From the NCBI GenBank assembly GCA_024278345.1, contig JAJRTK010000438.1:1-18857 (forward strand): a stretch of 18,857 bases of DNA, in the 5' to 3' direction. Below the pieces are notes generated by a model. The model saw nothing but the letters and a program-made list of their open reading frames with translations. It searched no databases and had not been told where the DNA came from. Made by a program: the position numbers and the translations under genes. Shown here in pieces: positions 1,740 to 18,445 of this stretch. The number at the start of each line of letters is the position of its first letter. Positions within the stretch are counted from its first letter, which is position 1. This stretch comes from a bacterium (GTDB lineage: Bacteria; CSSED10-310; JAJRTK01).

Positions 1740-1808
1740 GGGGCGGTTTTTGCAGGTCACCCGGCTCACTCTGAAAAACTGGGGCTTCACCTGAAACGGG
1801 TATCCACC

Positions 1809-1823
1809 TAAGCCGGGACACGC
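1809..1823 (+). repeat. Shared 15-mer followed by an A-tract, copy 1
   Basis: TAAGCCGGGACACGC is identical to bases 5261-5275. Both copies are followed directly by A-rich DNA (here AACAAAACCAAAAAAAG) and then a GC-rich ACG/CGAGG segment. Read on the other strand it is a T-tract leading into GCGTGTCCCGGCTTA. It could be an end of a small mobile element or a shared regulatory site; the sequence alone does not decide. Confidence 0.6.
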
Positions 1824-1870
1824 AACAAAACCAAAAAAAGACGCGCAGCGTACAAAAACGTGGGCTGGGA

Positions 1871-2005
1871 TCCCGTTGCCCTTCGTTGCAACGGGAAGAT
1901 GAGCGCGCTCCCTGGTGGGTGCAGGGCGAAACCCTGCCAGGGGACGGGGGATGGAATCCCCGGACCACCGCCGGGTAACGCGAGGCGTGACCCTTCGAGT
2001 CACGC
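1871..2005. other. Cluster of four compact stem-loops
   Basis: Perfect inverted repeats occur in close succession: 1871-1879 with 1888-1896 (9 bp, 8-nt loop); 1921-1926 with 1932-1937 (6 bp, CGAAA loop); 1947-1952 with 1956-1961 (6 bp, 3-nt loop); and 1985-1991 with 1999-2005 (7 bp, 7-nt loop). None is followed by a T-run, so they are not classic terminators. The density suggests a structured RNA or the remains of a palindrome-rich element. I could not match it to a known RNA family. Confidence 0.45.
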
Positions 2006-2147
2006 AAACGTGACCCGCCGAGCGATAGCGAGGCGTTGCCCGGACGCTTGCGATTCCACAGTCCCGGGAATGTCCCGCCTTGCGTGGAGCCCCTGAAACA
2101 TCCCCTCATTTCCAGGCGGAAAGAGGGTTTGGGGGCACGTTGACCGG

Positions 2148-3346
2148 TTGAAGGGCGATGAGAGGGGAGGGGCGGCGGACGGACTGCCGCCGACCCGACC
2201 GGACCCCAACATGGCTGGCGAACCGGTGGAGCTGGAGATTCGGTCTCTTGACAAGCCTGGTCAGGAGAACGATCTGGACGCCTGTTATGCCCATTTCGAC
2301 GGCGTCCTCCGGGAACTTCTCCGGCAAGGAGTCTCTCCCGGAGAAATCGGCATCGATTTCACCAGAGGAACCAAGGTGATGAGCGCCGCCCTGGTTCTTG
2401 CGGCCATCCGCCGGGAGATTCCTCGGCTTCGCTACATCACGGGTGATCGGGACAATCGGGGTTTCGTCATCTCTGGCACGGAAAGAATCACCGAACTCTC
2501 CATCGCCCATATCGGAGCCCGGAAACTCCTGGAGACTACGTACAGTCTCATGGTTCGCGGCGAATCAGTGCCATCGCCCGATTCTACACGGCCTGGGACC
2601 GCCTAGACTACCGCCGGGCAAGTGACCTGGCAAAGGGGGAAGGCCAGTTTTTCCACGCGCTCCCTCCCGGGCGTTGGAGCCGCCTCGAACCCTCTCGGGA
2701 TGCCCTTCAATGGGTCGCGGCCTTGGCGCAACCGGAGCCAGAGGAGATGCACCGCCGCGCCGAACGCCTGGCAAAGCTCGTGGTCGATCTCTATGCCAAC
2801 GGCCAGCGCAGGTTGAGGGACACCCACCTGGAAGACGCCCTCCTCCGCGCCTACCGGATCTTGGAGCTCGTGGGCCAGATGCGGCTTTTCCAGAAGGGAT
2901 ACGACTCGGCAAGGCTGCCCGTCGGTGGTGAAGTCGTGGAGAAAACCAGGGCTTTCCTGGAAAAGAAGAAAAAAGAAGGCTTCCAGCTAAGCCGAGATGA
3001 AAGCTCTTACCTGGCGCCAAGAATGCCCGTCGCCTACCTGTTGACGCAACTCGGGGATTCCCTGGGCAAAAGACTGCGGAAAGAGGCCGACGACGGCGCT
3101 CTTCCCGCCAAACGTCGGAACAAGAGCCTCCTCATCCACGGCTTCGAGGTTTCGGCCACCTCCCGGGAACAGGTGGAGGAGCTTTTCCTGCGCCTGGAAA
3201 CCCTTCTGGCTGACGTTTTTAAAGAGGAATGGAAACGGTGGCTCCCCCTGGCCCAGGCCCTGGATTTTGGAGAGTCGATGGAAGACCCGTCACCGGAGGA
3301 TCGACTGCTCCGCCCAGCGCCAACGCCCGGGAGCCAACGGCCATGA
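2148..3346 (+). pseudogene. Degraded CARF-HEPN protein of the TIGR02710 (Cas02710) family
   Basis: This is a paralogue of the intact gene at 13588-14886. The 5' part (codons from about 2205) matches the second half of the CARF domain, with IDFTRGTKVMSAALV aligning to INYTGGTKTMSAALV. About 80 N-terminal residues, including the LSVGG nucleotide-binding strand, are missing. Near 2552 the similarity jumps from frame 3 to frame 2, a one-base deletion: frame 2 then reads RRISAIARFYTAWDRLDYRRA, aligning to RRQKILAAIGAFDAWDRFDHRQ in the intact copy. Frame 2 continues to 3346 and keeps a HEPN-like RNKSLLIHG (R-x6-H). The CARF truncation begins next to a palindromic element at 2171-2192. With both a truncation and a frameshift it should be inactive; a free HEPN fragment starting around 2723 (TTG) is possible but unlikely. 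Confidence 0.82.
2171..2192 (+). repeat. Palindromic repeat element, copy 1
   Basis: The 22 bases can fold on themselves (GGCGGC pairing with GCCGCC). They match the reverse complement of the core of the element at 13464-13504 with a single mismatch (C for T). The copy lies at the truncated 5' edge of the broken CARF gene, which suggests the element or recombination at it took part in the truncation. Confidence 0.7.
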
Positions 3347-3389: not shown

Positions 3390-4925
3390 TTACAACCTTC
3401 TCCGCCGAAACCCTGCCACAGGCGACGCCCGACGTTCCACCCGCTCCACCACCAGCGAACCATCGGGGTTTTCCGGTAGGCCAAAAATTCCTCGGAGCAC
3501 TCCCCGCAGGAGTTCGTAGGCACCTCCGCCAAAGGAGGGGGCGTGGCCCGCATGAACGTCGAAGCCCATGGTCAAAGCCAAACGTTCCACTTCCCGGGCC
3601 AGCCGTGATTTCCCCAGCCCCGCTTCGCCTCCAATGGCCCATCCGCCTCCCCGGCCCTCGGCTGCCAGGCCAAGAAACGCAGCCAGCCGCCGAAGCTCCT
3701 CTCTTCTCCCCACCAAGGGTCTTTCCCGAGGCCTCCGCCGAGCTTCCCTGGAAAGAGTCCCCTTGGCCGCATAGAACGTCAAAGCCGTTCTCTTCCCCTT
3801 CACCTGCTGCTCACCACGCTCCTCCACCAGCAGGCCAGCCACCTCTTTCTTGACCCGGTCCGTCACCCATAGCTCCCCCCAATCCGCCGCTACCATCGTC
3901 CGGGCGGCCGTGTTCACCGCATCACCGATGACATCCACGGAACAACGTCTTTCGTTCCCCATGATCACGTTCACCACGATTCCACCGTGGATCCCACCCC
4001 GAACGCGCATCCCCGCCGGCACCCCTCGAATCAACTCGATCCCGGCGTGAACCGCCATCTCCAGATCCTTTTCATGGGCGCGTCCCAAACCAAAGAGCAC
4101 CAGCCACTTCACCCCAAAGGCCGACAGATCCGTCTTCAAGAACAGCCCGCCGTACCGCCCCGCCGCCGAGACCAAACCACCGTAAAACTCCTGAAGCCGC
4201 CGCCGCGCCCCGCCCTTCGTCTCCAAAAAGAGAACCGCCACCCTTCTGTAAGCTCCCTCAAATCCCTGGTAAAGGGAAAGCAACCCAGGTTCCAGATAGG
4301 CTTGGAGCTCTCGTCTCTCCACCTCCATGAGTGCGCTCTTTCGCCACGAAACTCGCCTCTCCGTCGCACGCTTCCGCCTCGCCGACGACGACACCAAGAT
4401 TGCGCCCGATGGAGCACGACTCTCCAACCGCGCCAGTTCCTCGACAACCTCCCCCGCCACCAGGTAGTGCCTCCTCCGCATCCCTCCCAGGTGATAGGCC
4501 TTGACGTTGCCGTAGTGGACCGCCTGGGAAATCCCCAGACCCACGGGGCCAACGCTGCTCACGACCTCGCCTCTCTCCCCGACCAACTCCAGGATGTCGC
4601 CCGCGGCGGCTTCAGCGCGACTCACGGGCTCCCGCCCACGAAACAGGCAAAACAGCGAGTCACCTCCAAAACCCACCACCGATCCACCCAATGCCTGGAC
4701 GCGATCCACCGCGGGGCCAAGAATCGAGCCAAGGTGATCCGATATCTCTTCCGCTCCATCCCTTCCACGTTCCTGGAGCTTTTCCGTCAACGCGGTGAAT
4801 CCCGAAACGTCCAAAAAGAGTAAAGCTGCCCGGAAACGCTCTACGTGAGGAAACTCCCAGCCGGCCTTCCGGCGAGCCAGGGAAGTCGAAAGAGACGAAG
4901 GTAGAAGCGGATCGAAATGGGTCAT
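3390..4925 (-). CDS. Tandem class III nucleotidyl cyclase with a truncated AAA/NTPase domain
   Basis: ATG at 4925 is preceded by GGAGG with 5-nt spacing (plus-strand CCTCC 4931-4935); a longer open frame upstream to 5018 has no such site. The 511-residue product has cyclase domain 1 (about 30-200) with both metal-binding aspartates, D39 in LFLDVSGFT and D89 in GFGGDSLF. Cyclase domain 2 (about 245-400) lacks the first aspartate (LFLETKGG) but keeps FLKTDLSAFG, MGNERRCSVDVIGDAVNTAA. This complementary pairing is that of soluble-adenylyl-cyclase-type enzymes, where the two domains form one active site making cAMP or cGMP. A P-loop (GEAGLGKS, 433-440) follows, but the protein ends only ~70 residues later in RRRRL, whereas family members usually continue for several hundred residues of ATPase and TPR. 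It is therefore 3'-truncated, about 40 bp from the end of the broken CARF gene. It is divergent from cmr2; any CRISPR role is unproven. Confidence 0.85.
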   Translation of the reverse strand: MTHFDPLLPSSLSTSLARRKAGWEFPHVERFRAALLFLDVSGFTALTEKLQERGRDGAEEISDHLGSILGPAVDRVQALGGSVVGFGGDSLFCLFRGREPVSRAEAAAGDILELVGERGEVVSSVGPVGLGISQAVHYGNVKAYHLGGMRRRHYLVAGEVVEELARLESRAPSGAILVSSSARRKRATERRVSWRKSALMEVERRELQAYLEPGLLSLYQGFEGAYRRVAVLFLETKGGARRRLQEFYGGLVSAAGRYGGLFLKTDLSAFGVKWLVLFGLGRAHEKDLEMAVHAGIELIRGVPAGMRVRGGIHGGIVVNVIMGNERRCSVDVIGDAVNTAARTMVAADWGELWVTDRVKKEVAGLLVEERGEQQVKGKRTALTFYAAKGTLSREARRRPRERPLVGRREELRRLAAFLGLAAEGRGGGWAIGGEAGLGKSRLAREVERLALTMGFDVHAGHAPSFGGGAYELLRGVLRGIFGLPENPDGSLVVERVERRASPVAGFRRRRL

Positions 4926-5260
4926 GGAAGCCTCCCCGAAAGAGGGATCAAACCCCCAGCCAAACAAAGCTGGCTGCGAGCTGGACTCTATGATCCGGTC
5001 GAAAAAGGCGAGCAGCATTAGCGGACGCGAACGATGCGAAGGGACTCAACCCGAAGAAAGAAAAGGCTGGGAATACAAAATGCCGGCTCTGCAAGGAGAA
5101 CACCGCCTGACAAAGAGTAAACTTAGCGAGGTGTGGGTATCCATGTACCATGAGAGTTCCGCCCGGTCTTTCATCTTTTCGTGGTGTTGGCCAGTCCTAC
5201 ATGATTATTCAGGCAGGACAAAGCGAGGCGCCGGCAAGGCGCAAAAGAGGGGCATCAACG

Positions 5261-5543: not shown

Positions 5544-8402
5544 ATGTTGGAAAAGAAAATGAAAAACACCGACTGGATTCAACTGCTTTGCGCGTTCTTC
5601 CACGATCCGCCGGACAAGGCCCTAAAAATCCCCGGCCACGTGCGGAGGGGCCTCGACTATTTTTGCGCGGCCTCCCGGCAGGAAATGGGCTACGAGGAGT
5701 TCAAGACGGCGGCGGGACTGGAAGATCAACTGGCCTCCATGGCGGAACGCCTTCCCATGCCCAGCGCCGGATCGAACGGAGAGCGAGCCGTGGGTCCCGA
5801 CAAGGATGGGTGCCTCCTGGCAATCCATCCCCTCTCTGGTGAAAGCCGGCAACTGAAGAGCAGCCGCCTGGAGCCCGGGAAAGTGCGTGCGGTGCTCCAG
5901 GGCCTCACTCAGGGAATCGACGACCCCCACAAACAGTTCCTGACCCTCTGGCGCCTCTTGCCCGGTGCCTTGGAACAAGCGTTCCCCGACTCCCTTCACT
6001 GGCCCGCCGACACTCGCCTGCCGGACCATACGATCTGGAACCACCTGGACATGACCGCGGGACTGGTGGCGGCGAAGCGCATGTCACCGTCGGGGAGCGG
6101 GGCGCTCCTGACCTTCTCCCTGGGCCCCGTCCAGCCGTTTATCGCTGGGGCCCGAACCGTCCGGGATCTCTGGAGCGGCAGCGCCATCCTCTCTTGGCTC
6201 GCCTTCCAAGGACTGATCCCGATCCTGGAAGCGGTGGGTCCGGCAGCCGTCGTCTTCCCGGCCCTCCGGGGCGTGCCGCTGATGGATCTGTGGCTTCGGG
6301 GGGAGATGGGCCTGGATCGCGTTCCCGAACCTTCCCTCATGAAGAGGAAGGCGCCCTGTCTGCCCAACCGGTTCCTGGCTCTGATACCTTTTGGCCGGGA
6401 AGGCGAGCTGGCATGGGATCTAGCCCGCCGCTGCCGGGAATCCGCCCGCAATGCCTGGCTCGATCTTGCGGAGGCGGTGCGAAGAAAGCTGGGACAGGCC
6501 TTCACTCAACGGCAGAGCCCCTTCCGGGAGGGCTGGTCCCGCCGTTGGCGGCACCAGGTGGATTCCTTCTTCGAAATCCGCACGGCCGTTTTGCCCTGGA
6601 GTCAGTTAGATGGGAAGAGCCTTGCCAGGCTCTCGGGATCCCAGTCGTTTTCAGAGGCGTTTCCCGACTCCGGGAAGATCCGGGACCTGGCTGTTCGGAT
6701 CCCGCCGGGCCACCGACCTTTCTACCCGCAGCAGAGCGCGGGGGAATGGCAAGCGCGTGTGGAGCTGGTGTTTCGCTCGCTGGCGTCCCACCGCTCCGTC
6801 CGCCACGTTCCCGTCGGACAGCCGGAGACTCCGGCGCCGCCCAAATGCACTCTCATGGGATCCTGGGAACAGATGGGGCCAGCCATCCTTCGTGAGTCCC
6901 GCGAGTTCTGGGAGGGGCTGGGAGATCCCGAGAATCCTCTCAGGGCCCAAGGCGTGCGTCTGCGGAAAGGGGAACGCCTTTGCGCCATCGCTCTGACGAA
7001 GCGGTTCGCCGCGCCGGTCTATCTGAACCGGATCCTGAGACTGGATCGGACGGCGGTCCGCTTCGACGACACGGCGACCGTCGCCGCGGCCGGCTGGCTA
7101 CGGAAGGCCGGCATCCATCCGGAGCAGTTCTTCGACGAGGGGAGCGGCTGGAGCGGGCAATGGCTTCACTGGCCCACGCAACGGTTCGACCGCGACGAAA
7201 AGCCGGTCCCCCATGAGCTATGGGACCAAATCCTCCATGCCCGGTCTCCCAAGAGCCTGGGGCCTCCTCCCACCTATTATGCCCTTCTCATGATGGACGG
7301 CGATCAGATGGGACAATGGCTTGGAGGGAAGAAAACACCAGCCGTGGGAAAGCTGCTCCACCCGAAACTGCGCCGCTACTTCGCGGAGCTTCCCGGGGCG
7401 GCGGACCTCCTGAAGGCTCGACGCCCGGTGAGTCCTGCCCTCCATGCCGCCATCAGCTCCGCTTTGGTGGGGTTTTCCGCCGAGGTCGTTCCCCGGCGGG
7501 TGGAAGAGTGTCATGGCGAGCTCATCTATTCCGGGGGCGACGACGTTCTTGCGCTACTACCCACCCGGGAGGCGCTGGGTCTGGCTCAAGATCTGCGCCG
7601 AGCCTTTCGCGGCGAGCTGGATGACGGCTCGCCACGGGGGTTCTGCCGCGGTAACGGCGGAGGGGATTTCCTTGCCATGGGGCCCACGGCAGGGATTTCC
7701 GCTGGAATCGTCATCGCCCATTACAAGGATCACCTGGCGGCTGTTCTGGCCGATGGCCGGGCGGCGGAGAAAGAGGCCAAGGAATCGGGACGGGACTGCG
7801 TTTCTATCCGAGTGCGGAAGAGATCTGGCGAGCGCTCTTCCGCATGGTGCTCCTGGGATCTATTGCCAGCCATGATGCGGCTCCTGGAGGCCTTCGAGGC
7901 CGGTGCATCACCCCGATGGCTCTACCGGTTCTCCCGCCACCTGGAGACGCTGAAGGCTTTGCCGGATAAAGCGGCCGCCGCGGAGCTGCGGCGCCAAATC
8001 GCCCGGGCGGACGCCACCACCCGGGAAATCCTGAAGGCATGCGACTTCAGGACTGGCCATGAAGCAGAGGCCCGCGGAGCAGGGGCCGGCCACGGGGCTC
8101 GGTCTGAATACGGAGCAGGGGCCGGCCACGGAGCAGGGACCGGGAATGGGGCTCGGGCTGAATACGGAGCAGGTGGCGGCCAGGGGGCTCGGGCTGAAAG
8201 CGGATCCGCCCACAACGGCGGGAAGGAGCCAGACAAAGAGGCCGAACCCCTCCGGATCGAAGAGTGCCGGGGCATCCCGGCACTCCTGCGACGCCACCAT
8301 CTGGCGTTCGAAAAGGCCCACCGGGACGAGCTCCCGCTGGAGAACTTTTTGGAGCTCTGCCGGGCCACGGCCTTCCTGGCCCGAGGGAGGGACGACCGAT
8401 GA
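5544..8402 (+). CDS. cmr2: Cmr2 (Cas10), type III-B large subunit
   Basis: This is the large subunit of the Cmr complex (952 residues). The N-terminal HD nuclease signature is H20-D21 in FFHDPPDKAL, placed for target-activated single-stranded DNA cleavage. The first Palm-like segment has LLTFSLGPVQPFI and VRDLWSGS; the second has MMDGDQMGQWL (D585, D587) and the catalytic IYSGGDDVLALL (G664-D667), so cyclic oligoadenylate synthesis should be intact. Near the C-terminus, residues 845-886 are a glycine/alanine-rich repeat that looks like an insertion in the small-subunit-like region; unique sequence resumes afterwards. ATG 5544 has no clear ribosome site. ATG 5559 (MKNTDWIQLL) follows GGAAAAG and may be the true start. 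The stop overlaps the next ATG as ATGA. The CARF-HEPN protein downstream is the expected target of its second messenger. Confidence 0.96.
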   Translation: MLEKKMKNTDWIQLLCAFFHDPPDKALKIPGHVRRGLDYFCAASRQEMGYEEFKTAAGLEDQLASMAERLPMPSAGSNGERAVGPDKDGCLLAIHPLSGESRQLKSSRLEPGKVRAVLQGLTQGIDDPHKQFLTLWRLLPGALEQAFPDSLHWPADTRLPDHTIWNHLDMTAGLVAAKRMSPSGSGALLTFSLGPVQPFIAGARTVRDLWSGSAILSWLAFQGLIPILEAVGPAAVVFPALRGVPLMDLWLRGEMGLDRVPEPSLMKRKAPCLPNRFLALIPFGREGELAWDLARRCRESARNAWLDLAEAVRRKLGQAFTQRQSPFREGWSRRWRHQVDSFFEIRTAVLPWSQLDGKSLARLSGSQSFSEAFPDSGKIRDLAVRIPPGHRPFYPQQSAGEWQARVELVFRSLASHRSVRHVPVGQPETPAPPKCTLMGSWEQMGPAILRESREFWEGLGDPENPLRAQGVRLRKGERLCAIALTKRFAAPVYLNRILRLDRTAVRFDDTATVAAAGWLRKAGIHPEQFFDEGSGWSGQWLHWPTQRFDRDEKPVPHELWDQILHARSPKSLGPPPTYYALLMMDGDQMGQWLGGKKTPAVGKLLHPKLRRYFAELPGAADLLKARRPVSPALHAAISSALVGFSAEVVPRRVEECHGELIYSGGDDVLALLPTREALGLAQDLRRAFRGELDDGSPRGFCRGNGGGDFLAMGPTAGISAGIVIAHYKDHLAAVLADGRAAEKEAKESGRDCVSIRVRKRSGERSSAWCSWDLLPAMMRLLEAFEAGASPRWLYRFSRHLETLKALPDKAAAAELRRQIARADATTREILKACDFRTGHEAEARGAGAGHGARSEYGAGAGHGAGTGNGARAEYGAGGGQGARAESGSAHNGGKEPDKEAEPLRIEECRGIPALLRRHHLAFEKAHRDELPLENFLELCRATAFLARGRDDR
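8076..8201 (+). repeat. 36-bp / 18-bp in-frame tandem repeat inside cmr2
   Basis: The units are 8076-8111, a half unit 8112-8129, 8130-8165 and 8166-8201. The full unit encodes GAGAGHGARSEY and variants, built from two related hexapeptides. Unit lengths are multiples of three, so the frame is preserved while copy number can vary. The segment is a low-complexity insertion in the C-terminal part of Cas10. Confidence 0.9.
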
Positions 8403-8470
8403 ACCGAAAGGAGTCGATTATGCGCAATACCGGGGTCTCCGGGCAAACCAGTGGAGGAATCACGGGATGA
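8399..8470 (+). CDS. 23-residue mini-ORF coupled between cmr2 and cmr3
   Basis: The ORF starts at ATG 8399, which overlaps the cmr2 stop as ATGA. GGGAGG lies 8 nt upstream. It encodes MNRKESIMRNTGVSGQTSGG plus ITG and ends at TGA 8468-8470, overlapping the cmr3 ATG (8467) again as ATGA. The layout is that of a translational bridge passing ribosomes from cmr2 to cmr3; the peptide has no recognisable motif. It could be chance, since a start near a stop is common in tight operons. Confidence 0.4.
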   Translation: MNRKESIMRNTGVSGQTSGGITG

Positions 8471-9786
8471 GCCAGCCGATGCGGTTCGATCCGGGCGAGG
8501 CGGGTTTTGGTCCCATCCCGGGGCAGAAGGGGGCGAGTGGCGGCGGACGCGGGGAACTCGCGCCGAAGGCGCGGGTCGGTGCCGCCGGGAGCGGAACGGA
8601 ACAAAAGGAGCGGGAAACCTCCTTGGAGACCCCATCCATCAACGGCCTACACCGGGGAGGGCGGATTGGCCTTTTGCTGAGCCCGCTGGACCTGCTTTTT
8701 TTCCGGGGCGGGTTCACCTTTGGCGAGGGGGCGCACGTGCGGAGCCTGCTCCCCACGCCTCAGACCCTTGCCGGCGCCATACGATCATGGCTTCTTCGTG
8801 AGCTGGGCTTCGACTTCTTGAACCTTCCGCCGCGATTGGAGGCAGGACTCGGGTTCCGGGAGGCACTGGCGTTGGAGGAAGATGCACGAATCCAGGCGGT
8901 GGGGCGGCTCCTGGTCCGAGGGCCCTGGCTGGCAAAAGTTGGGGATGATGGCAGCTACGAGCCTCTGGTTCGAACCCCGGCGACGCTCCAGAGAACCAAG
9001 GAGATGGGCGGGCGTGGCAAGCTCTACCGTTTCGACCCTCTACGACCGGAGGAGCTACCGGGGTGGCATCCTTTTTGCCACGCTCTTTGGCCTCTCTGGG
9101 CACGGCGGGGGGAACCCGGCGAAGCGGCGGGGGGATATCTCCGGCCCGACGGGCTTTCGGCCTTTCTGAAGGGCGGTCTTCCGGAGGCGGGTCATGTGGT
9201 GAAGGAGGGCGATCTGCTGGGCCGCGCCTCGCGGACGGGGATCGGCATGGACCCGGATCGGCGGACCGTGGCCGAGGGGCGGATCTATGTGGCGGAAATG
9301 CTGGCGCTGAAAGAAGGCGTCGCCTTTTACGGGGAGATCGCCGGGGAGACCGGGGATCTGGAGCTGGTGCCGGATTCGGGGGTGGCACGGTTCGGAGGGG
9401 AGGCACGGCAGGTTCGCGTGAGTAGGGTTCCCGCGCACCCGTGGCCGGATTCCGCCTGCCAGGCCCGCCATCCCGAGGCCAAGGGAGGTCGAGCTCTTTT
9501 GGCGCTCCTCACGGCACCGGCAATCTTCAGCGGCGGATGGCAACCCGATGAGGCTCCGGGGGAATTGATCTCCGCGGCCGTGCCGGGGCACGAGGCGGTT
9601 TCCGGGTGGGATCTTGCCCGGCGGGGCCCAAAACCGACGCGCTTTGCCCTGCCTGCTGGAAGCGTTTTCTTTTTTCGCCAAAATGCCGGGACCTTCCCGG
9701 CAAGCCTTCCGGATTCCCTCTGCACGAAGGCAGAGGCCGAGTTGGGCTGGGGCTCAGTAGTTTATGGAGGGTGGAACCATGTCTGA
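8467..9786 (+). CDS. cmr3: Cmr3, Cas5-like subunit of the type III-B complex
   Basis: Cmr3 is the Cas5-family RAMP protein that holds the 5' tag of the crRNA next to Cas10. ATG 8467 follows GGAGG (8453-8457) with 9-nt spacing. The conserved core starts only at about residue 66: LLLSPLDLLFFRGGFTFGEG, then RSLLPTPQTLAGAIRSWLL; the end is ELGWGSVVYGGWNHV, the usual glycine-rich Cmr3 terminus. Total length is 439 residues. The first ~65 residues are a Gly/Ala/Glu-rich extension absent from typical Cmr3 proteins, and bases 8532-8596 within it match a palindromic element found elsewhere in the window. A later start, for example TTG near 8671, would give a normal-length protein. The 3' end overlaps cmr4 by 8 bp. 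Confidence 0.95.
   Translation: MSQPMRFDPGEAGFGPIPGQKGASGGGRGELAPKARVGAAGSGTEQKERETSLETPSINGLHRGGRIGLLLSPLDLLFFRGGFTFGEGAHVRSLLPTPQTLAGAIRSWLLRELGFDFLNLPPRLEAGLGFREALALEEDARIQAVGRLLVRGPWLAKVGDDGSYEPLVRTPATLQRTKEMGGRGKLYRFDPLRPEELPGWHPFCHALWPLWARRGEPGEAAGGYLRPDGLSAFLKGGLPEAGHVVKEGDLLGRASRTGIGMDPDRRTVAEGRIYVAEMLALKEGVAFYGEIAGETGDLELVPDSGVARFGGEARQVRVSRVPAHPWPDSACQARHPEAKGGRALLALLTAPAIFSGGWQPDEAPGELISAAVPGHEAVSGWDLARRGPKPTRFALPAGSVFFFRQNAGTFPASLPDSLCTKAEAELGWGSVVYGGWNHV
8532..8596 (+). repeat. Palindromic repeat element, copy 2, within the cmr3 coding frame
   Basis: Two arms, GGCGAGTGGCGGCGGACG (8532-8549) and GCCGCCGGGAGCGGAA (8581-8596), are exact reverse complements of 13487-13504 and 13464-13479. 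The arms are separated here by 31 nt, including a CGCGCC-GAA-GGCGCG hairpin, against 7 nt in the other copy. The element is translated as part of the unusual Cmr3 N-terminal extension if the annotated start is right. Confidence 0.75.
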
Positions 9787-10747
9787 ACGCGCGCTTCTTT
9801 TCATTCATGCTTTGACGGGGATGCACCCGGGGGCGGGTACTTCGCCGGGAACCATCGACCTCCCGGTTCAGCGGGAGCGGCACACCGGTTGGCCCACCAT
9901 CGCCGCGTCCGGCGTCAAGGGGGTGCTCAGGGATGCCTGCCGCGAACGGGCGGCGGATTCTGAATCGGCGGTGGCGGAAACAGGCCCGGATGCCCCCAGA
10001 AAGGAGCGGAGACGATGGGCCAACGAGTTCCACGAAAGCCTCGTCACCGCCTTCGGCCCTGGACGCGTGGACGAGGCCAGTGCTCATGCCGGCGCCATCG
10101 CCATCACCGACGCCCGAATCCTGGCCTTCCCCGTCCGCTCCGCCAGAGGAGTGTTCGCCTGGATCACCTGCTCGGGGGTCCTGGATCGCTTCGACCGGGA
10201 CCTGGAACTGGCGGGGGCCGAGCTTCCCTGTTATCCGCTGGTGAAGGAAGGGAAAATCGCGGCGCCGCCCAACAGCCCACTTCTTCTGGGGGCCGGAAAC
10301 GAGCGGAGAATTGTCTTGGAGGAACTCGAATTCCTCGGGACGGAAGACGATTCAGAGAAGGTGGCGGACTTCCTGGCCGACGAGACGCTGAGGGATCCGG
10401 GGAGCTCCCTGCGCTTCCGGGAACGCCTCTGCGTCTTGAGCGACGACGATTTCACCTTTTTCGTGCGAAACGCCACGGAGGTGGTTCCGCGAATCGCCTT
10501 GAACTACGAGACGAAGAGCGTGAGAAAGGGCGCTCTCTTCTACCAGGAGTTTCTTCCACCTGAAACCCTCCTTTACTCCTTGGTACTCGCCGGCGGGAGC
10601 CGCCGGGACGGTAAGGAAACCAGCGCATCCGAGATCTTGGACTACCTGGAAAAAAGCCTTCCCGAGCTACTTCAGATCGGCGGCGACGAAACCACGGGGA
10701 AGGGGCTTTGCGCGACTCGCCTCTGGCGCCCGGGAAAGGAGGCATGA
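9779..10747 (+). CDS. cmr4: Cmr4, Cas7-like backbone RNase
   Basis: Cmr4 forms the helical backbone of the complex and cuts target RNA at 6-nt intervals. ATG 9779 is preceded by GGAGGGTGG; ATG 9764 lies further upstream in the same frame but within that ribosome site. The 322-residue product has the family signature HPGAGTSPGTIDLPVQRERH; D27 in IDLPVQRE corresponds to the catalytic aspartate D26 described for Pyrococcus furiosus Cmr4. Further hallmarks are ASGVKGVLRDA, FPVRSARGVFAWITCSGVL, KGALFYQEFLPPET and LQIGGDETTGKGL. All expected key elements are present, so target RNA cleavage should work. It overlaps cmr3 by 8 bp and its stop is 2 bp before the cmr5 start. Confidence 0.97.
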   Translation: MSERALLFIHALTGMHPGAGTSPGTIDLPVQRERHTGWPTIAASGVKGVLRDACRERAADSESAVAETGPDAPRKERRRWANEFHESLVTAFGPGRVDEASAHAGAIAITDARILAFPVRSARGVFAWITCSGVLDRFDRDLELAGAELPCYPLVKEGKIAAPPNSPLLLGAGNERRIVLEELEFLGTEDDSEKVADFLADETLRDPGSSLRFRERLCVLSDDDFTFFVRNATEVVPRIALNYETKSVRKGALFYQEFLPPETLLYSLVLAGGSRRDGKETSASEILDYLEKSLPELLQIGGDETTGKGLCATRLWRPGKEA

Positions 10748-10749
10748 CC

Positions 10750-11148
10750 ATGGCTCCCACACTCCATCAACAAAGGGCTAGGAACGCCTGGGAAGCCATC
10801 GAGAAGATCGACGGCAAACCAGGATTCAAGGAAAGCCAGAAGAAGGACTACGGCAGGGCTGCAAAAAAACTGCCGGTGCGGGCGCTCACCGCCGGACTGG
10901 GCCAGGCGCTGGCCTTCCTTCATGCCAAGGGTCAGGGAAACGCTCCGTTGAAGCTACTCATGAGCGACCTCTCCAAATGGACGCTCTCTCGCTACAAACC
11001 ACCCGCGGGCCATGACACCAACCTGCTGGACGCCATTATTCATGGTGACGGCCAGTTCTTGCGCCTGGTCACCGACGAAGCCCTTGCCTGGCTCCAGTGG
11101 CTCAACCGCTTCGCCGAGGCCAAAGGCTGGACAGCCGAGGAGGAATGA
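10750..11148 (+). CDS. cmr5: Cmr5, small subunit of the type III-B complex
   Basis: Cmr5 is the small alpha-helical subunit that lines the Cmr4 filament along the target RNA. ATG 10750 is 7 nt from GGAGG (10738-10742); an in-frame ATG at 10744 overlaps the cmr4 stop but sits too close to the ribosome site. The 132-residue product shows LPVRALTAGLGQALAFLHAK in its first half and DEALAWLQWLNRFAEA near the end, both typical for Cmr5. The stop at 11146-11148 overlaps one candidate start of the next gene (ATGA) and lies 1 bp before the other. Confidence 0.95.
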   Translation: MAPTLHQQRARNAWEAIEKIDGKPGFKESQKKDYGRAAKKLPVRALTAGLGQALAFLHAKGQGNAPLKLLMSDLSKWTLSRYKPPAGHDTNLLDAIIHGDGQFLRLVTDEALAWLQWLNRFAEAKGWTAEEE

Positions 11149-11149
11149 G

Positions 11150-13357
11150 ATGCCCGGACGACGACCGCCCCAAGGAAGAGACTCCGCCCGTGGACGCCGA
11201 TGGGATGGCGGCCAAAGCCCGGGACGGCAAGGGGCAAGGAGAAGAGGCCCCCCCCGCTTGGCTATTCCTCTCCCTCGCTCCACCGCTGCCCTGATAGAGG
11301 GGGTCAACCCCGGTGAACAGCACCCCGGCCTCCAACTGGACAAGTACCCCCGCCAGCTCTTGAACCCCGAGGAAAACCCGAAAAACGCCGAAGGCTGGCA
11401 GCTCAGCGCCATCGGAAGGGTCTGCGCCGCCAAGGGGCCCGAGGCCCTCTTCCCCGACCTTGCCGGCCGCAGGAAAAGGCTCCTGGAAAGCGTAGGCGGC
11501 CTCTTCGCCCAAGGAGTGACTACGGGACCCCTGACCCTGCACCTCTCCCGGGCCACGGCGCTCGAAAACGTCGGCATCTGCCTCCATCCCATCTATGGTT
11601 TCCCATTCCTGCCCGGCACCGGCCTCAAGGGAATGACCCAGGCGTGGGCCGAAACCGTCTGGCTGCAGTCCCAGCGGGACCGCGCCCAAGGGTGGAGCCG
11701 CATAGGCCGAGTCTTCGGCGTTGCCGACACTCCCCTCTGGAAAGAGCGCCAAAGGCGCGGCGCACGGCACGCACCGCCTGCGGCCGGAGACATCGTCTTC
11801 CACGACGCATGGCCCGCCAGGTGGCCCAAGCTGGAACCGGACATCCTCAACAACCATCACCGCCGGTACTACGACGGGACAGGCAACCAGAACGCGCCGG
11901 GAGACTGGGAGGAGCCTCTTCCCGTCACTTTTCTCCGCGTGGCCTCGGGAAGCAACTTCTCCTTCGCCCTGACTCCCCGAAGGCCCGAAATCCCCGACAC
12001 TCTCCTGGAGCTGGCCGCATCCTGGCTCACCGGCGCTCTTGGCCATCTGGGGGCCGGCGCCAAAACCAACGCCGGATATGGCACGATCCGGGTTCCTTTC
12101 TGGACACACGTCACCAGGAAAAAGGCTGCCCGGCGGGCAACCGAATCCGTGGCCGACGCAACCAACTCCGCGGCCGACACCGCCCATGCGGCCGGAGCCG
12201 ATGCGCCCCGAAGCAAAGCGCCCCACGCCCGCCGCCAGGGCCCGGAAACCCCGGATCAGCCCGAGACACCCCGCACCTTCCGCCTGCCCCGGGGAAGCTC
12301 CCGGGCACTCTTGAAGGCTGCCAATCATCCAACCCACGAAACCACCCTCACCCTGGTGGCTCCCGCATTCCTTGCCGGACCAAGGCAGGGTCAGAAGGAC
12401 TGCGAATTGCGCCCGGCAACCCTCCGAGGCCTCCTCCGCTGGTGGTGGCGCACCCTCCACGCCGGTTTTCTGGAAATCCGGGAACTTCGCCGGTTGGAAG
12501 GCGTCCTTTGGGGCGACACCAGCCAGAGCGGCGCCATCCGCCTTACCCTGGAGGCCCGCGAAGGAAACCCGAAACCGGAACCCTTCGACGCACGAAAAAT
12601 CCTAAGGACCATAGGCTACCGTCAACAGGGGCGGGGAATCCCCGGACTCTCTTACCACGCGTACGGCATGGGCGAAAGGAACCGCCAACGCTTCTTCCTT
12701 CCGCCGGACGCCTGGTGGAATATATGTCTCCAGGCCCGATGCTGCCGCCTTCCCAAGACTTTTGGGGACCGACGAAAAATCGAATCTCAACAGGTATTGG
12801 AACAGGCCACCACAGCCCTTTGGCTCCTTTGCGCCCGTGGAGGCGTAGGCGGCAAGAGCCGGAAGGGTTTCGGATCTCTGGAAGAAGGGGAACCCCGACG
12901 CATCAACCGTCCTTCGGCCATGGAAAACTCCCGGCGATTCCGGGAGACATTGGCTCTTCCCAACCGGTACACGGAAAACCTCGTTCACTCGCCGAGCCTC
13001 CGGTCTAGCCCCGACTTCCCCACCATTGCCGTGAACTGGACCAATCCCTGGAGACTGCTCCACGAAATCGGGGCCGCCACTCAGACCATCGTCAAGGAAC
13101 AGGACAAGCCAGACCGCTATATCTTCGGTATACCGCGAAAGCTCCGGGACACGGCGATTCCGGATTTCTCGCGCTACGCATCTCCGTTCCACTGGCACGT
13201 GGGGCGGCGCGGCGGCAACACCGCGTACGAAGTCACCCTCACACCCTTCCCGACCCCGCACCTGCCCAGAAAAAACACCGGATTCCACGGAAACTACCAG
13301 CTTCTGGATCACGCCGGAGGCGAAATGCTGGGCGAGCTCCGCGAGCGTTCTCCCTGA
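11150..13357 (+). CDS. cmr6-cmr1: Cmr6-Cmr1 fusion protein, two RAMP subunits in one frame
   Basis: A single 735-residue frame contains both subunits that cap the 3' crRNA end of the Cmr complex. Cmr6 part (about 37-315): YGFPFLPGTGLKGMTQAWAE, RIGRVFG, GDIVFHDAWP, NNHHRRYY and GALGHLGAGAKTNAGYG. An Ala/Pro/Arg-rich linker (about 318-394) follows. Cmr1 part (about 395-735): TLTLVAPAFLAG, ELRPATLRGLLRWWWRTL, LEGVLWGDTSQSGAIRLTLE and GGVGGKSRKGFGSL. No other cmr1 is present. ATG 11150 has AGGAGG at ideal 6-nt spacing, but codons 2-36 in this frame are Arg-rich with low GC at third positions. The frame beginning at ATG 11145 (coupled ATGA with cmr5) has normal codon use up to a C8 run at 11248-11255. 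One more C there, or a -1 slip, would join it to the main frame. The N-terminus is therefore uncertain; the rest is solid. Confidence 0.94.
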   Translation: MPGRRPPQGRDSARGRRWDGGQSPGRQGARRRGPPRLAIPLPRSTAALIEGVNPGEQHPGLQLDKYPRQLLNPEENPKNAEGWQLSAIGRVCAAKGPEALFPDLAGRRKRLLESVGGLFAQGVTTGPLTLHLSRATALENVGICLHPIYGFPFLPGTGLKGMTQAWAETVWLQSQRDRAQGWSRIGRVFGVADTPLWKERQRRGARHAPPAAGDIVFHDAWPARWPKLEPDILNNHHRRYYDGTGNQNAPGDWEEPLPVTFLRVASGSNFSFALTPRRPEIPDTLLELAASWLTGALGHLGAGAKTNAGYGTIRVPFWTHVTRKKAARRATESVADATNSAADTAHAAGADAPRSKAPHARRQGPETPDQPETPRTFRLPRGSSRALLKAANHPTHETTLTLVAPAFLAGPRQGQKDCELRPATLRGLLRWWWRTLHAGFLEIRELRRLEGVLWGDTSQSGAIRLTLEAREGNPKPEPFDARKILRTIGYRQQGRGIPGLSYHAYGMGERNRQRFFLPPDAWWNICLQARCCRLPKTFGDRRKIESQQVLEQATTALWLLCARGGVGGKSRKGFGSLEEGEPRRINRPSAMENSRRFRETLALPNRYTENLVHSPSLRSSPDFPTIAVNWTNPWRLLHEIGAATQTIVKEQDKPDRYIFGIPRKLRDTAIPDFSRYASPFHWHVGRRGGNTAYEVTLTPFPTPHLPRKNTGFHGNYQLLDHAGGEMLGELRERSP

Positions 13358-13587: not shown

Positions 13588-14886
13588 ATGCAACGAAAAC
13601 AGATCCTGATTCTTTCCGTGGGCGGATCGCCCGCACCGCTCATCAATACGATCCAGACCTGCGAACCCCAGAAGATCGTCTTCGTCTGTAGCGAAACCTC
13701 CGCGCTGGCGGTGGATGGGGAGGGGCATCCCACCGCCAACCCACGCTACGCCATCTGTCCCGACTGCTCCAAGCGGTTTGCCACGGGCCCGGAAAAGGGA
13801 CACTCCTTGGCACGGCGCCTGGGCCTCTCATCGGAGGATTACCTCAAGTGGATCGTCCCCACCGACAACCTCGATGAGATCATGGACCGGCTTTCCGAGC
13901 TGGAAGCACTTCTGGACCGGGAACACCCCGGGGCCGACGTCGCCATCAACTACACCGGCGGGACCAAGACCATGAGCGCGGCCCTCGTTCTCCTGGCGCT
14001 TGGGCGCACCGACTGGAGACTGGATCTCAACACGGGGCCTCGGACGGATCTGCTGGCCGTCCACGGCCACGACATCGTCCAACAGGCTTCCGTGGAATCC
14101 ACTCGAACCGCCATCCAACTGGACTCCGTCCGGACCCATTTGGGTGCCCATTCCTACGGGGCGGCAGCCAGGACCCTCCGAGGCATCCTTCGCGGCACCA
14201 CCACTGGCCCGAAAAGCGCCCGCCGGCAGAAGATCTTGGCCGCCATCGGGGCCTTCGACGCCTGGGACCGCTTCGACCACCGGCAGGCCATGGAGATCAT
14301 CCAGAGCGCCGACTTGTGCAGTGATGCCGCCATCCACCCTTTCTTCCAACGCCTCAAGATCCTCACGGGGCATAAGAAGGCTCACGGTTTCGAGTTGGTG
14401 GCGGACCTCCTGGATAACGCAGGGCGGCGGGAGATGGAAGAACGGTACGACGACGCGGTGGGACGCCTCTACCGGGCATTGGAACTTACCGCCCAAACCA
14501 TGCTCAAGAAGAGACATGACCTCGACACGTCCCACCTGGGCCTGGAGCGGCTCCCCGAAGAGTTTGCCCGGACACTTCCCAACGTTGCACCTGGAAAAAA
14601 GAGCCAAATCGGACTGATGAAAGCCTGGAAGCTTCTGGCTCTCCTGGAGCCCGACTTCAACCAGAATGTCTGGGAACAGCATCACAAAAGCGTCCTCAAC
14701 ACTCTCTGCATCAGGAACTACAGCATCCTGGCCCACGGCCTCAAGCCCATCTCCAGGGAAGACTGGGGGAAAGTCCAAGCGGTCTTTCCGAAGGTCATCA
14801 CCGAAACCACGAAGCACTACGGAATCACCCTGACGAAGATCCAACTGCCGGGAGAAGAGATCCTTGGGTGGTTCCGCGCACCATGA
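13588..14886 (+). CDS. CARF-HEPN ancillary protein of the TIGR02710 (Cas02710) family
   Basis: A 432-residue protein expected to bind cyclic oligoadenylate made by Cas10 and to respond by cutting RNA. The N-terminal CARF domain has the strand and loop ILILSVGGSPAPLI (about 6-19) and the second ligand-binding motif NYTGGTKTMSAAL (121-133). It also carries a CPDC cysteine pair (ICPDCSKRFATG) that may bind metal. The C-terminal half is helical and ends in a HEPN active site, R376 to H383 in RNYSILAHG (R-x6-H). ATG 13588 follows GAGG; another ATG at 13583 is out of frame. The gene lies 230 bp after the Cmr operon and 30 bp before CAPP, so it is probably transcribed with the adaptation genes. An inactivated paralogue lies at 2148-3346. 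Family assignment is confident; RNase activity is inferred. Confidence 0.93.
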   Translation: MQRKQILILSVGGSPAPLINTIQTCEPQKIVFVCSETSALAVDGEGHPTANPRYAICPDCSKRFATGPEKGHSLARRLGLSSEDYLKWIVPTDNLDEIMDRLSELEALLDREHPGADVAINYTGGTKTMSAALVLLALGRTDWRLDLNTGPRTDLLAVHGHDIVQQASVESTRTAIQLDSVRTHLGAHSYGAAARTLRGILRGTTTGPKSARRQKILAAIGAFDAWDRFDHRQAMEIIQSADLCSDAAIHPFFQRLKILTGHKKAHGFELVADLLDNAGRREMEERYDDAVGRLYRALELTAQTMLKKRHDLDTSHLGLERLPEEFARTLPNVAPGKKSQIGLMKAWKLLALLEPDFNQNVWEQHHKSVLNTLCIRNYSILAHGLKPISREDWGKVQAVFPKVITETTKHYGITLTKIQLPGEEILGWFRAP

Positions 14887-14916: not shown

Positions 14917-16962
14917 ATGGCAACCTCCACTGCACCGGACCTTCTTGACCTGGCCCGCCGTCATCCCGACGAGGCGCGGCGCATCCTGGAATCGGCGGGC
15001 GGCTCGGACGAACCAAGAGACCATGCCATCATGGCCAGCGCAGCCGAAATCCTGGGCCTCCACGGCCTGGCCTTCCAGGAGCTTATCCTTGCCGCGCGCG
15101 CGGAGCCCGGGAATGCCGGATTCCTCATGCGCGTGGCCGAGGCTTATCGGGAACGGGGCGACTTCCGCCGGGCCTGCGCCACCTTGGAACGAGCCGTGGG
15201 AATCCCGGGGGCTCCCATGGATGCTTGGGAAGCCCTGGCCGACCTCTACGCTGGCGAGCGGTTCTGGGAGAAACTGCGAGACCTGGCGCGACGCGGCAGG
15301 GACGGCGGGCTCTCTGAAAAAGTGACCCGCCGGTGGCTCCAACGGGCCGAGCCACCGAAACCTCGGCGACAGGCGGACGATCTCCAGATCACAACCCTGC
15401 TGGATGCCTCCGACGCCGATCTCATCCGCTTCCTGGCGCTCTTCGGCGGGCGGGAAGAAGTCCATGCCCGGCAATGGTTCGATCCCCGTACGGGCCGAGG
15501 CGGCTACAGCCCCGTAGAACAGCCACTCACACCGCGACAGCTTCGGTCCCACTTGGCCGGCGACACAACGCTGGGCGTCTATCCCATCCGTTTGGACGGA
15601 ACGACCGGATTCCTGGCCATCGACCTCGACATCACCCGCCGGGCGCTGGAAGAAGCGCGGAGCGATCTTGACCGGGCGCACGGCCTGCGAAAAAGCGCAG
15701 CCGACTTCGCCGTCCGGATCGCCGGCGATCTCCGCAGGATGGGCTTCGAGCCCCTCCTTGAATCCAGCGGATACAAGGGCCGCCACATCTGGGTATTCTT
15801 CCACCCGCCCCAGACCTCGGCAAGGATCCACCGCTTGGGCGAGCTGCTCCTCCGCCGCTTCGCACCGATGACGCCACCTGGCCTCCACCTGGAAGCCTTT
15901 CCCAAGCAGGCTCGAAGGAAGAGCGGAAAGAAGGGCCTTGGCAACCTCATCAAGCTCCCCTTGGGTATCCACCGCCGTTCGGGGCGCCGCAGCCTCCTCC
16001 TCGATCCCGCCGGCGCCTTGATCGCCAATCCCTTCAAGCTCCTCAGAACCATGCCCCGAACGGGGGACGAAATCCTCCTCCAGGCCCTCACCGCTCTCCG
16101 GAGCCTTGACAGTGAACCACCGGCGCAGCAGCAGCCGGAACCGGAAGAGCTTCTCCTGCCCCCCCTGCCTCCCGCATCGCCCGCACCGCCGCCATGGACC
16201 GACGCGGACTTCGAAACTCACCGGAAGATCCGCCACCTCCTTTCCATCTGCCCCGTCCTCAAACAGCTACGGCGGCAGGCCGAAAAAGAACGGCGCCTGG
16301 ACTACGACGAACAGATGGTCCTCCGCCACACTCTGGGCCATATCCCAGAAGGCGTCCTGGCCGTCAACTACATCTTCCAGCTCGTTCCGGAAATCCCCGG
16401 GGACCGGTTCCTCAAGAGCCGCCTCAAGGGAAACCCCATCTCTTGCCCGAAAATCCGACAACGCATCCCCCACCTCACCCAGAGGCTACCCTGCAACTGC
16501 GTCTTTCCCCTGGCCCCCGAACACTACCCCACCCCAAACCTCCACCTCCTGGACCTGCCTCCCGAACCTCAACCGGATGGAACAGAGCCGCCCTCGGCCA
16601 TCAATGGAACAGAGCCGGCCTCGGCCATCAATGGAGCAGAGCCGGCCTCGGCCATCAATGGAGCAGAACCGGCCTCGACCGTGCAAAAAGCTCTTTCCTC
16701 GCAGCTAAGGACCGCCGTGCCCCATTCAACGGCGGACGGCCAGGGGGATCCCGCCAGCCTTCTCCAAGGTATGGCCAGGAGCTACCAGATCCTTCAGCGC
16801 CGGAAGGCCGAGCTGGACGCCGAGCTGCAACAACTTGCCGCCGCACTGGCCGCCCACCTCAAACGCCTTCCGGAGCCGCACCTGGAGAGCGGCGACGCAC
16901 GAATCGAGCTCCAAACCAACGACGGCGTCGAAACCGTCGTCGTCACCCCTTCCAATACCTGA
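14917..16962 (+). CDS. CRISPR-associated primase-polymerase (CAPP-like): TPR + AEP primase + Cys domain
   Basis: A 681-residue protein with three parts. Residues ~1-150 are TPR-like helices (AAEILGLHGLAFQELILAAR; AEAYRERGDFRRACATLERA). Residues ~165-400 are an archaeo-eukaryotic primase core of the type seen in TOTE/CAPP proteins: motif I FLAIDLDIT (D236, D238), motif II SSGYKGRHIWVFF (H290), and motif III GNLIKLPLGIHRRSGRRS. Residues ~435-545 carry four cysteines, C445, C510, C526 and C528; the first three are spaced somewhat like the Fe-S domain of primase large subunits. A 9-residue repeat (about 555-590) and a coiled-coil-like helix (LQRRKAELDAELQQLAAALA) finish the protein. ATG 14917 follows GGAAGAG. 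Its neighbours cas1 (5 bp downstream) and cas2 match published CAPP loci, where the enzyme is linked to spacer acquisition. Polymerase and primase activity is inferred from motifs. Confidence 0.9.
   Translation: MATSTAPDLLDLARRHPDEARRILESAGGSDEPRDHAIMASAAEILGLHGLAFQELILAARAEPGNAGFLMRVAEAYRERGDFRRACATLERAVGIPGAPMDAWEALADLYAGERFWEKLRDLARRGRDGGLSEKVTRRWLQRAEPPKPRRQADDLQITTLLDASDADLIRFLALFGGREEVHARQWFDPRTGRGGYSPVEQPLTPRQLRSHLAGDTTLGVYPIRLDGTTGFLAIDLDITRRALEEARSDLDRAHGLRKSAADFAVRIAGDLRRMGFEPLLESSGYKGRHIWVFFHPPQTSARIHRLGELLLRRFAPMTPPGLHLEAFPKQARRKSGKKGLGNLIKLPLGIHRRSGRRSLLLDPAGALIANPFKLLRTMPRTGDEILLQALTALRSLDSEPPAQQQPEPEELLLPPLPPASPAPPPWTDADFETHRKIRHLLSICPVLKQLRRQAEKERRLDYDEQMVLRHTLGHIPEGVLAVNYIFQLVPEIPGDRFLKSRLKGNPISCPKIRQRIPHLTQRLPCNCVFPLAPEHYPTPNLHLLDLPPEPQPDGTEPPSAINGTEPASAINGAEPASAINGAEPASTVQKALSSQLRTAVPHSTADGQGDPASLLQGMARSYQILQRRKAELDAELQQLAAALAAHLKRLPEPHLESGDARIELQTNDGVETVVVTPSNT
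16579..16686 (+). repeat. 27-bp in-frame tandem repeat inside CAPP
   Basis: The units are 16579-16605, 16606-16632, 16633-16659 and a divergent fourth at 16660-16686. Each encodes GTEPPSAIN or GAEPASAIN. Units 2 and 3 differ at one base, which points to recent duplication. The array forms the linker between the Cys domain and the C-terminal helix. Confidence 0.92.
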
Positions 16963-16967
16963 CCGCC

Positions 16968-18146
16968 GTGGGAACCCTCGTCGTCAACGAGATCGGATGC
17001 CAACTGGGCCTGCAGACCGGCTGCCTCATCATCCGGAAAAAGAAGGCCATCCTCCGGAGGATCCGCCTCCAGGAGGTAACGGCCATCCTCTTGGTGGGCA
17101 AAGTGGAAATCACCGCATCCGCCATCTTCGCCGCCTTCCGCCTGGGCATCCCCATCTCCTGGATAAGCCGCGCCGGGAAATACTTGGGAAGCCTTTCGGG
17201 CCCCACCATGGCCATTTCTGAACGCTGGATCGCCCAGTTCCGCGCAACCCAGAATCCCCAACTCCGTCTTCGCCTCATGCAGTCGTTTGTCAAGGGCAAA
17301 ATCCAGAACCAGCGGACTCTCTTGTTGCGAGCCCAACGGCGCCTCAAAGATGAACGGATCGCCGAGGCCCTGGCCAGGATGCGCCTTTCCCGAAACCGGC
17401 TGGAAGAGGCCGCCACCCCCGACGAGGTGCGAGGCTACGAAGGCGCCGCGGCCGCCGCCTACTTCTCCGTCTTCGGCAGGACCATCGCCAACCCGCTCTT
17501 CCAGTTCAACCGCCGCAACCGCCGCCCACCAAGGGATCCCGTCAACGCCTGCCTCTCCTTCGGCTACGCCTTCCTGGCCACCAACACCGAAGCCATCGTT
17601 CGCGCAAGAGGCCTCCTTCCCGCCATCGGCTTTCTCCACGAACCTCTCCGAGGCCGGCCATCCCTGGTCCTGGACCTCATGGAAGAGTTCCGCCCCGTCG
17701 CCGTCGATGCCCTCATCCTGCGCCTTCTCAATCGAAGACAACTGACGCCGGGAGATTTCCACGAATTCGATCCCAATGACCCCGACGGCGACGCATTGGA
17801 TCTCCCGCCCACGCCCTTTCCCCCAACGCCCACCAACGACAATCCCCTTCTTCCGCCCATCGAAACCCCACCCGGCCCCCACCCACCCAGCACCGGCCTC
17901 AACCCGGAATCCCACCGGCTTGGAATCACCCCCACCGAACCAGCAGCGCCCTCAAAAGCCGTCTACCTGGGCAAAACCGGTCGGAAAATCTTCATCTCCG
18001 CCTGGCTCTCCAGGCTCCGAGAGCCCATATCCCTTCGGAATCACGGCAAAATCACCCTCCAAAAGGCCATCGAGCTTCAGGTGGACCATCTCATCCGCCT
18101 CCTAGAAGGAACCGATGAACATTACTTCCCCATAGAGATCCGTTGA
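16968..18146 (+). CDS. cas1: Cas1 integrase with a proline-rich insertion
   Basis: Cas1 catalyses spacer integration with Cas2. I chose GTG 16968 because the protein then begins (f)MGTLVVNEIGCQLGLQTG, matching the usual first strand of Cas1. It lies 5 bp after the CAPP stop, without its own ribosome site, so translation is probably coupled. The open frame extends far upstream, but that part is a shadow of CAPP. The 392-residue product has the three active-site residues: E158 in GYEGAAAAAYF, H224 in GFLHEPL and D236 in LVLDLMEEFRP. Residues ~268-331 are a Pro/Thr/Asp-rich insertion (for example DLPPTPFPPTPTNDNPLLPP) placed before the conserved AVYLGKTGRKIF strand. The core is complete, so activity is expected. 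Confidence 0.96.
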   Translation: MGTLVVNEIGCQLGLQTGCLIIRKKKAILRRIRLQEVTAILLVGKVEITASAIFAAFRLGIPISWISRAGKYLGSLSGPTMAISERWIAQFRATQNPQLRLRLMQSFVKGKIQNQRTLLLRAQRRLKDERIAEALARMRLSRNRLEEAATPDEVRGYEGAAAAAYFSVFGRTIANPLFQFNRRNRRPPRDPVNACLSFGYAFLATNTEAIVRARGLLPAIGFLHEPLRGRPSLVLDLMEEFRPVAVDALILRLLNRRQLTPGDFHEFDPNDPDGDALDLPPTPFPPTPTNDNPLLPPIETPPGPHPPSTGLNPESHRLGITPTEPAAPSKAVYLGKTGRKIFISAWLSRLREPISLRNHGKITLQKAIELQVDHLIRLLEGTDEHYFPIEIR

Positions 18147-18169: not shown

Positions 18170-18445
18170 ATGTACATCCTTGTATGTTACGATATTGTCA
18201 CCAATTCCAGGCGCACCAAGCTCATGAAGACACTCAAGAGCTATCTGGAAAGAGTCCAGAAAAGCGTCTTCGAGGGCGAAATCACCGCCGCTCGCTGCCA
18301 AACCTTGCAAAACCGCATCGGCTCTATCATCGATCACGAAATCGACACCGTCCGCATCTATTTCCTTTGCAAGGGATGCCGCCACAGAATCGAGATCATC
18401 GGCACAGGAGCCATCCCCGATCCCGAGGGCGATTGGGTGGTCTGA
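18170..18445 (+). CDS. cas2: Cas2
   Basis: This is the structural partner of Cas1 in the spacer-integration complex. The 91-residue product starts MYILVCYDIVTNSRRTKLMK, with the conserved Asp of the first ferredoxin-fold strand (D8), and ends with the strand VRIYFLCKGC and a short tail. It lies 23 bp after cas1. There is no strong ribosome site before ATG 18170, so coupling to cas1 is likely. Length and fold match the family. A GCC-paired hairpin begins 12 bp after the stop. Confidence 0.95.
   Translation: MYILVCYDIVTNSRRTKLMKTLKSYLERVQKSVFEGEITAARCQTLQNRIGSIIDHEIDTVRIYFLCKGCRHRIEIIGTGAIPDPEGDWVV

Follow-up and report, generated by a model that had tools for sequence, protein, structure and literature searches.

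A single-frame Cmr6-Cmr1 protein in a type III-B CRISPR operon, with relatives in at least eight bacterial phyla

The stretch of DNA analysed here (the window; positions 1 to 18,857 of contig JAJRTK010000438.1, assembly GCA_024278345.1, a bacterium of the GTDB lineage CSSED10-310; JAJRTK01) contains a CRISPR effector operon in the order cas10-cmr3-cmr4-cmr5-[cmr6-cmr1], followed by genes for a CARF-HEPN effector, a primase-polymerase, cas1 and cas2. The following features were assigned:

5544..8402, + strand: cas10/cmr2 (TIGR02577, 231.1 bits; HDPPDK and GGDD motifs)
8440..9786, + strand: cmr3 (TIGR01888, 111.2 bits; PF09700); the true start lies further in, the domain beginning at residue 79 of this frame
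9764..10747, + strand: cmr4, the backbone Cas7 (TIGR02580, 238.3 bits)
10708..11148, + strand: cmr5, Cas11 (PF09701; TIGR01881, 46.7 bits)
11150..13357, + strand: fused Cmr6-Cmr1 open reading frame (735 aa, calculated 81.9 kDa)
11564..12088, + strand: Cmr6 core, a Cas7-like RAMP (residues 139-313; TIGR01898, 106.6 bits)
12089..12325, + strand: interdomain linker (residues 314-392; Ala/Arg/Pro-rich)
12326..13324, + strand: Cmr1 domain (residues 393-725; TIGR01894, 33.3 bits, and fold match)
13588..14886, + strand: CARF-HEPN effector of the TIGR02710 / Csx1-Csm6 type (TIGR02710, 169.6 bits; PADLOC CARF1-CARF_HEPN)
14917..16962, + strand: CRISPR-associated primase-polymerase (NF040561, 249.7 bits)
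16977..18146, + strand: cas1, start approximate (PF01867, TIGR00287)
18170..18445, + strand: cas2 (PF09827, TIGR01573)

Cas10/Cmr2, Cmr3, Cmr4 and Cmr5 are found in one operon, all scoring above the NCBIfam cut-offs, and the translation of the predicted Cas10 contains both the GGDD cyclase motif and an HD motif, which places the system in type III-B (Cmr). A separate cmr1, said to be missing from the operon in an earlier note on this DNA, was indeed found neither in the operon nor elsewhere in the window; within the window we also recognised no cas6 and saw no CRISPR array. Upstream of the intact operon, positions 690-3346 (+) hold broken type III remnants, namely a Csm3/Cas7-like RAMP interrupted by a stop (816-1214) and a second Csx1/Csm6-like protein, of which CARF (2148-2606) and HEPN (2723-3346) pieces lie in different frames. 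Between these remnants and the operon, the opposite strand (3390-5018, -) encodes an apparently truncated protein that combines a guanylate-cyclase domain with the beginning of an AAA ATPase domain. Two repeats fall inside coding sequences: repeats with an 18-bp period (8072-8215) form a Gly/Ala-rich insert close to the C-terminus of Cas10, and three 27-bp repeats (16577-16680) give the primase-polymerase a repeated NGTEPASAI-like peptide in its C-terminal part.

The ATG of the fused gene lies one base past the cmr5 stop and five bases past a ribosome-binding site, GAGGAGGA. From there the frame runs for 735 codons without an internal stop and ends with TGA. Its N-terminal half is recognised as Cmr6 by TIGR01898 (106.6 bits at residues 139-313; NCBI curated cut-off 51.1 bits) and its C-terminal half as Cmr1 by TIGR01894 (33.3 bits at residues 402-506; cut-off 28.65 bits). 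The Cmr1 score is barely above its cut-off; the fold match of this half is strong. Pfam detects two RAMPs matches, one per half, and the PADLOC models for Cmr6 and Cmr1 concur. An AlphaFold2 model of the fused chain, built on an alignment of 15 relatives, consists of two folded halves joined by a disordered linker (mean pLDDT 72.2; below 50 at residues 345-390). Residues 393-725 of the model match Cmr1 of A. fulgidus (9l7c_A, 325 residues long) with a Z-score of 24.2 (rmsd 3.1, 281 residues aligned) and other solved Cmr1 structures, including 4w8x of P. furiosus, with 22.4 and 22.4. Residues 56-314 match A. fulgidus Cmr6 (3x1l_H; Z 17.5, rmsd 3.7, 208 residues aligned), and a further solved Cmr6 reaches Z 16.6. 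The earlier note had described one open frame holding complete Cmr6 and Cmr1 cores and had predicted a subunit of about 80 kDa; the frame is uninterrupted, contains the sequence motifs named there, and its calculated mass agrees. The fusion in this genome is confirmed as real, with Cmr6 and Cmr1 both complete.

How widespread such a protein is had been left open. A scan of 84,980 species genomes returned 18 related loci, in 14 of which one frame covers both domains. The carriers belong to Acidobacteriota, Planctomycetota, Omnitrophota, Latescibacterota, Pseudomonadota, Bacillota and Thermodesulfobacteriota and include a Sericytochromatia genome; among them are two named isolates of Pseudomonadota, Roseospira visakhapatnamensis and Nitratireductor sp. 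XY-223. The profile search proposed in the earlier note gave the same answer in the relatives as in the window, since both TIGR01898 and TIGR01894 are matched by all 15 aligned fusion proteins. A further 1,674 genomes sampled from five phyla contributed seven more fusions, one of them cut at a contig end. As the remaining matches in these samples were mostly separate Cmr6 or Cmr1 proteins, a fusion of this type is a minority form. Altogether, 21 single-frame Cmr6-Cmr1 proteins were found beyond the window, in one clade spanning at least eight phyla, to which a group of cyanobacterial proteins with the same domain composition is added below. Wherever a relative's locus is long enough to show the gene order, cas10-cmr3-cmr4-cmr5-fusion is kept. 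A plasmid collection searched with the window protein yielded matches only to separate Cmr6, none covering 80% of the query.

Many of the fused relatives (L016, L018-L020, L022-L025, L027, L029, L031) end in a conserved C-terminal domain of about 70 residues with the consensus LLEEKTKKGGWKA...SGPIQNT..VP...PG, which is absent from the window protein and also ends some separate Cmr6 proteins (L062, L072, L098). Comparison with Pfam and PDB sequences gave no convincing match for this domain.

A tree was built from 91 Cmr6 domains, with sampling that began from the fused protein. In it, the 22 fused proteins including that of the window occupy one side of a branch and require one change (SH-aLRT 88). 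Together with two separate Cmr6 proteins from Planctomycetota they form a group of 24 rows, starred at 96. A smaller tree of Cmr1 domains is poorly supported and has a few separate Cmr1 proteins mixed into the fused group. Judged from the Cmr6 tree, the simplest reading would be one fusion event which spread between phyla along with its operon. Two Defluviicoccus operons (L032, L033) carry cmr6 and cmr1 as separate genes that keep this order with 5 nt between them; from such a layout a stop loss together with a frame change could yield the fusion, or a fusion could revert to it. The same two operons contain two different Cmr1-like genes: one, encoding 488 aa, heads the operon, and the other directly follows cmr6.

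A fusion of this kind is already known from the literature: in the III-B cluster 4 of Microcystis aeruginosa FACHB-524, Cmr1 and Cmr6 form one protein, "Cmr1-6", which was recovered as a single subunit when its complex with Cas10, Cmr3, Cmr4 and Cmr5 was purified; with crRNA, that complex raised the resistance of E. coli to phage T4 about 10-fold (PMC11855584, published in 2025). We did not find a second paper on a Cmr1/Cmr6 fusion in the open-access literature. The window and the Microcystis system have in common a chain with both domains and a III-B operon that includes cas10, cmr3, cmr4 and cmr5 but no separate cmr1. However, cyanobacterial homologs (L044-L056, and L118 from Microcystis NIES-2481) form a very divergent, separate clade of about 570-680 aa and do not have the additional C-terminal domain. 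The FACHB-524 complex, compared through its published description, is probably from a different clade.

Cyanobacterial proteins of about 650 aa match the Cmr6 half and are annotated "Cmr6" or "RAMP superfamily". Their C-terminal half aligns with the Cmr1 profile in hhalign (E-value 9.5e-7) over the RPxxxxxxLRxWxR motif, and TIGR01894 is weakly matched by seven of nine. A modest AlphaFold2 model (pLDDT 59.4) reaches Z-scores of 18.1 against Cmr1 and 12.3 against Cmr6. One of these proteins is the 649-aa "RAMP superfamily CRISPR-associated protein" of the III-Bv locus on plasmid pSYSA of Synechocystis sp. PCC 6803 (NC_005230.1, 80203-82152). As in the window, Cmr6 (residues 151-297) precedes Cmr1 (344-405) in one chain, and the gene closes the core set, preceded by cas10, cmr3, cmr4 and a small gene. 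Unlike the window protein, it is divergent, reaches neither the Cmr6 nor the Cmr1 curated cut-off, falls into the cyanobacterial clade and has different neighbors. No separate cmr1 is annotated near the Synechocystis pSYSA and Microcystis NIES-2481 fusions. Both the multi-phylum clade and the shared make-up of the Synechocystis protein appear to be new, as no paper stating either was found in the open-access literature.

In the Cmr6 tree the multi-phylum and the cyanobacterial fusions form separate clades, although a topology that unites them is not rejected (p-AU 0.395). The chances are about even that fusion arose at least twice independently, in the multi-phylum group and in the cyanobacterial III-Bv systems, with Cmr6 ahead of Cmr1 each time. 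In that case the multi-phylum clade would represent an unnamed III-B variant whose effector operon of five genes moves from phylum to phylum, often encoding the undescribed C-terminal domain of about 70 residues as well.

Other effectors also combine RAMP units. Type III-E Cas7-11 and the multi-Cas7 subunits of type III-D fuse units other than Cmr6 and Cmr1, and III-E has no Cas10. Both resemble the window protein in that RAMP subunits of one effector are joined, and both were among the Foldseek matches. In the window, by contrast, only the two capping subunits are fused, whereas Cas10, Cmr3, Cmr4 and Cmr5 remain separate; the system is hence not a single-chain Cas7-11 effector, in which several Cas7 units and Cas11 form one protein without Cas10. 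The published Cmr1-6 is the kind to which it belongs. Canonical Cmr6 and Cmr1 (A. fulgidus 3x1l, 9l7c; P. furiosus 4w8v, 4w8x; Thermus TtCmr) have the same two folds as the halves of the window protein, but are two chains from two genes; the position at the crRNA 3′ end is presumably shared.

In solved Cmr complexes, a Cmr1-Cmr6 heterodimer caps the filament at the 3′ end of the crRNA (PMC8376896). According to earlier work cited in that paper, both subunits are needed for target RNA binding. The Cmr6 GYG motif and the Cmr1 PAFL motif are 93 residues apart in the window protein and 21 to 46 apart in the relatives, at the low end 21-31; gaps as short as the latter indicate that the end of Cmr6 and that of Cmr1 must be near each other. 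Hence, the suggestion in the earlier note that a covalent link is structurally sensible finds backing in the structures as well as in the short gap of the relatives. We infer, with a probability of roughly 0.9, that the single polypeptide replaces two III-B subunits: it would be expressed as one chain and fill the Cmr6/Cmr1 cap at the crRNA 3′ end, with the two domains at a fixed 1:1 ratio. The N-terminal Cmr6 and C-terminal Cmr1 domains would take the heterodimer's places on the Cmr4/Cmr5 filament, at the 3′ end of the crRNA, with the linker bridging the short distance from the Cmr6 C-terminus to the Cmr1 N-terminus, and the fused cap would help target RNA to bind there. A fused chain should also enforce equal amounts of both domains and their joint assembly. 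The remaining cycle would be that of an ordinary III-B system, in which Cmr4 cleaves the target RNA, Cas10 contributes HD and cyclase activity, and cyclic oligoadenylate activates the CARF-HEPN ribonuclease encoded by the adjoining gene.

The linker itself, given as an Ala/Pro segment of about 75 residues in the earlier description, comprises about 80 residues (approx. 314-392) rich in Ala, Arg, Pro and Thr. Since it is the longest among the 15 aligned fusion proteins, a host protease could cut the chain after translation in this exposed, Ala/Arg-rich segment, which is predicted to be disordered, and the working complex would then contain separate Cmr6 and Cmr1. However, the relatives have far less room between the flanking motifs, and Cmr1-6 of Microcystis gave a single band on purification (PMC11855584), so we consider such processing improbable. 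Even less probable is a mixture of fused and free Cmr1, the latter made from an internal start: the linker contains a single GTG (codon 334) and a single TTG (codon 388), but no ATG, and neither codon is preceded by a Shine-Dalgarno sequence. The chance that two neighboring genes only look joined because a stop codon was lost through faulty assembly or sequencing is negligible despite the fragmented assembly (550 contigs), the broken genes upstream and the closely spaced Defluviicoccus genes, because the same architecture occurs in 21 other single-frame proteins, isolates and complete chromosomes included, and the GC content at the three codon positions of the linker resembles that of the flanking domains and neighboring genes; for the family, chance or an assembly artifact is refuted.

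If the single chain indeed forms the cap, the five-subunit III-B effector is a recurrent design rather than the curiosity of one cyanobacterium. Annotation masks the fusion: RefSeq names the cyanobacterial proteins "Cmr6" or "RAMP superfamily protein" and, consequently, their operons seem to be without cmr1. Whether Cmr1 and Cmr6 ever work independently could be tested with such a naturally fused cap, and engineered III-B complexes for RNA detection could use one to fix the Cmr6:Cmr1 ratio.

Although the fused operon has no separate cmr1, such a gene does exist elsewhere in the genome. Contig C340 carries a second, conventional operon, cmr1-cas10-cmr3-cmr4-cmr5-cmr6, with a separate Cmr1 of 339 aa and a separate Cmr6 of 283 aa. 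A derivation of the fusion from the genome's own cmr1 and cmr6 was rejected, as the C340 Cmr6 falls outside the fused clade and far from it in the Cmr6 tree. Sharing of subunits between the fused and the separate operon is possible. In total, 16 further RAMP-family hits were found on six other contigs (C71, C161, C201, C244, C326 and C340), showing that the genome carries several type III systems.
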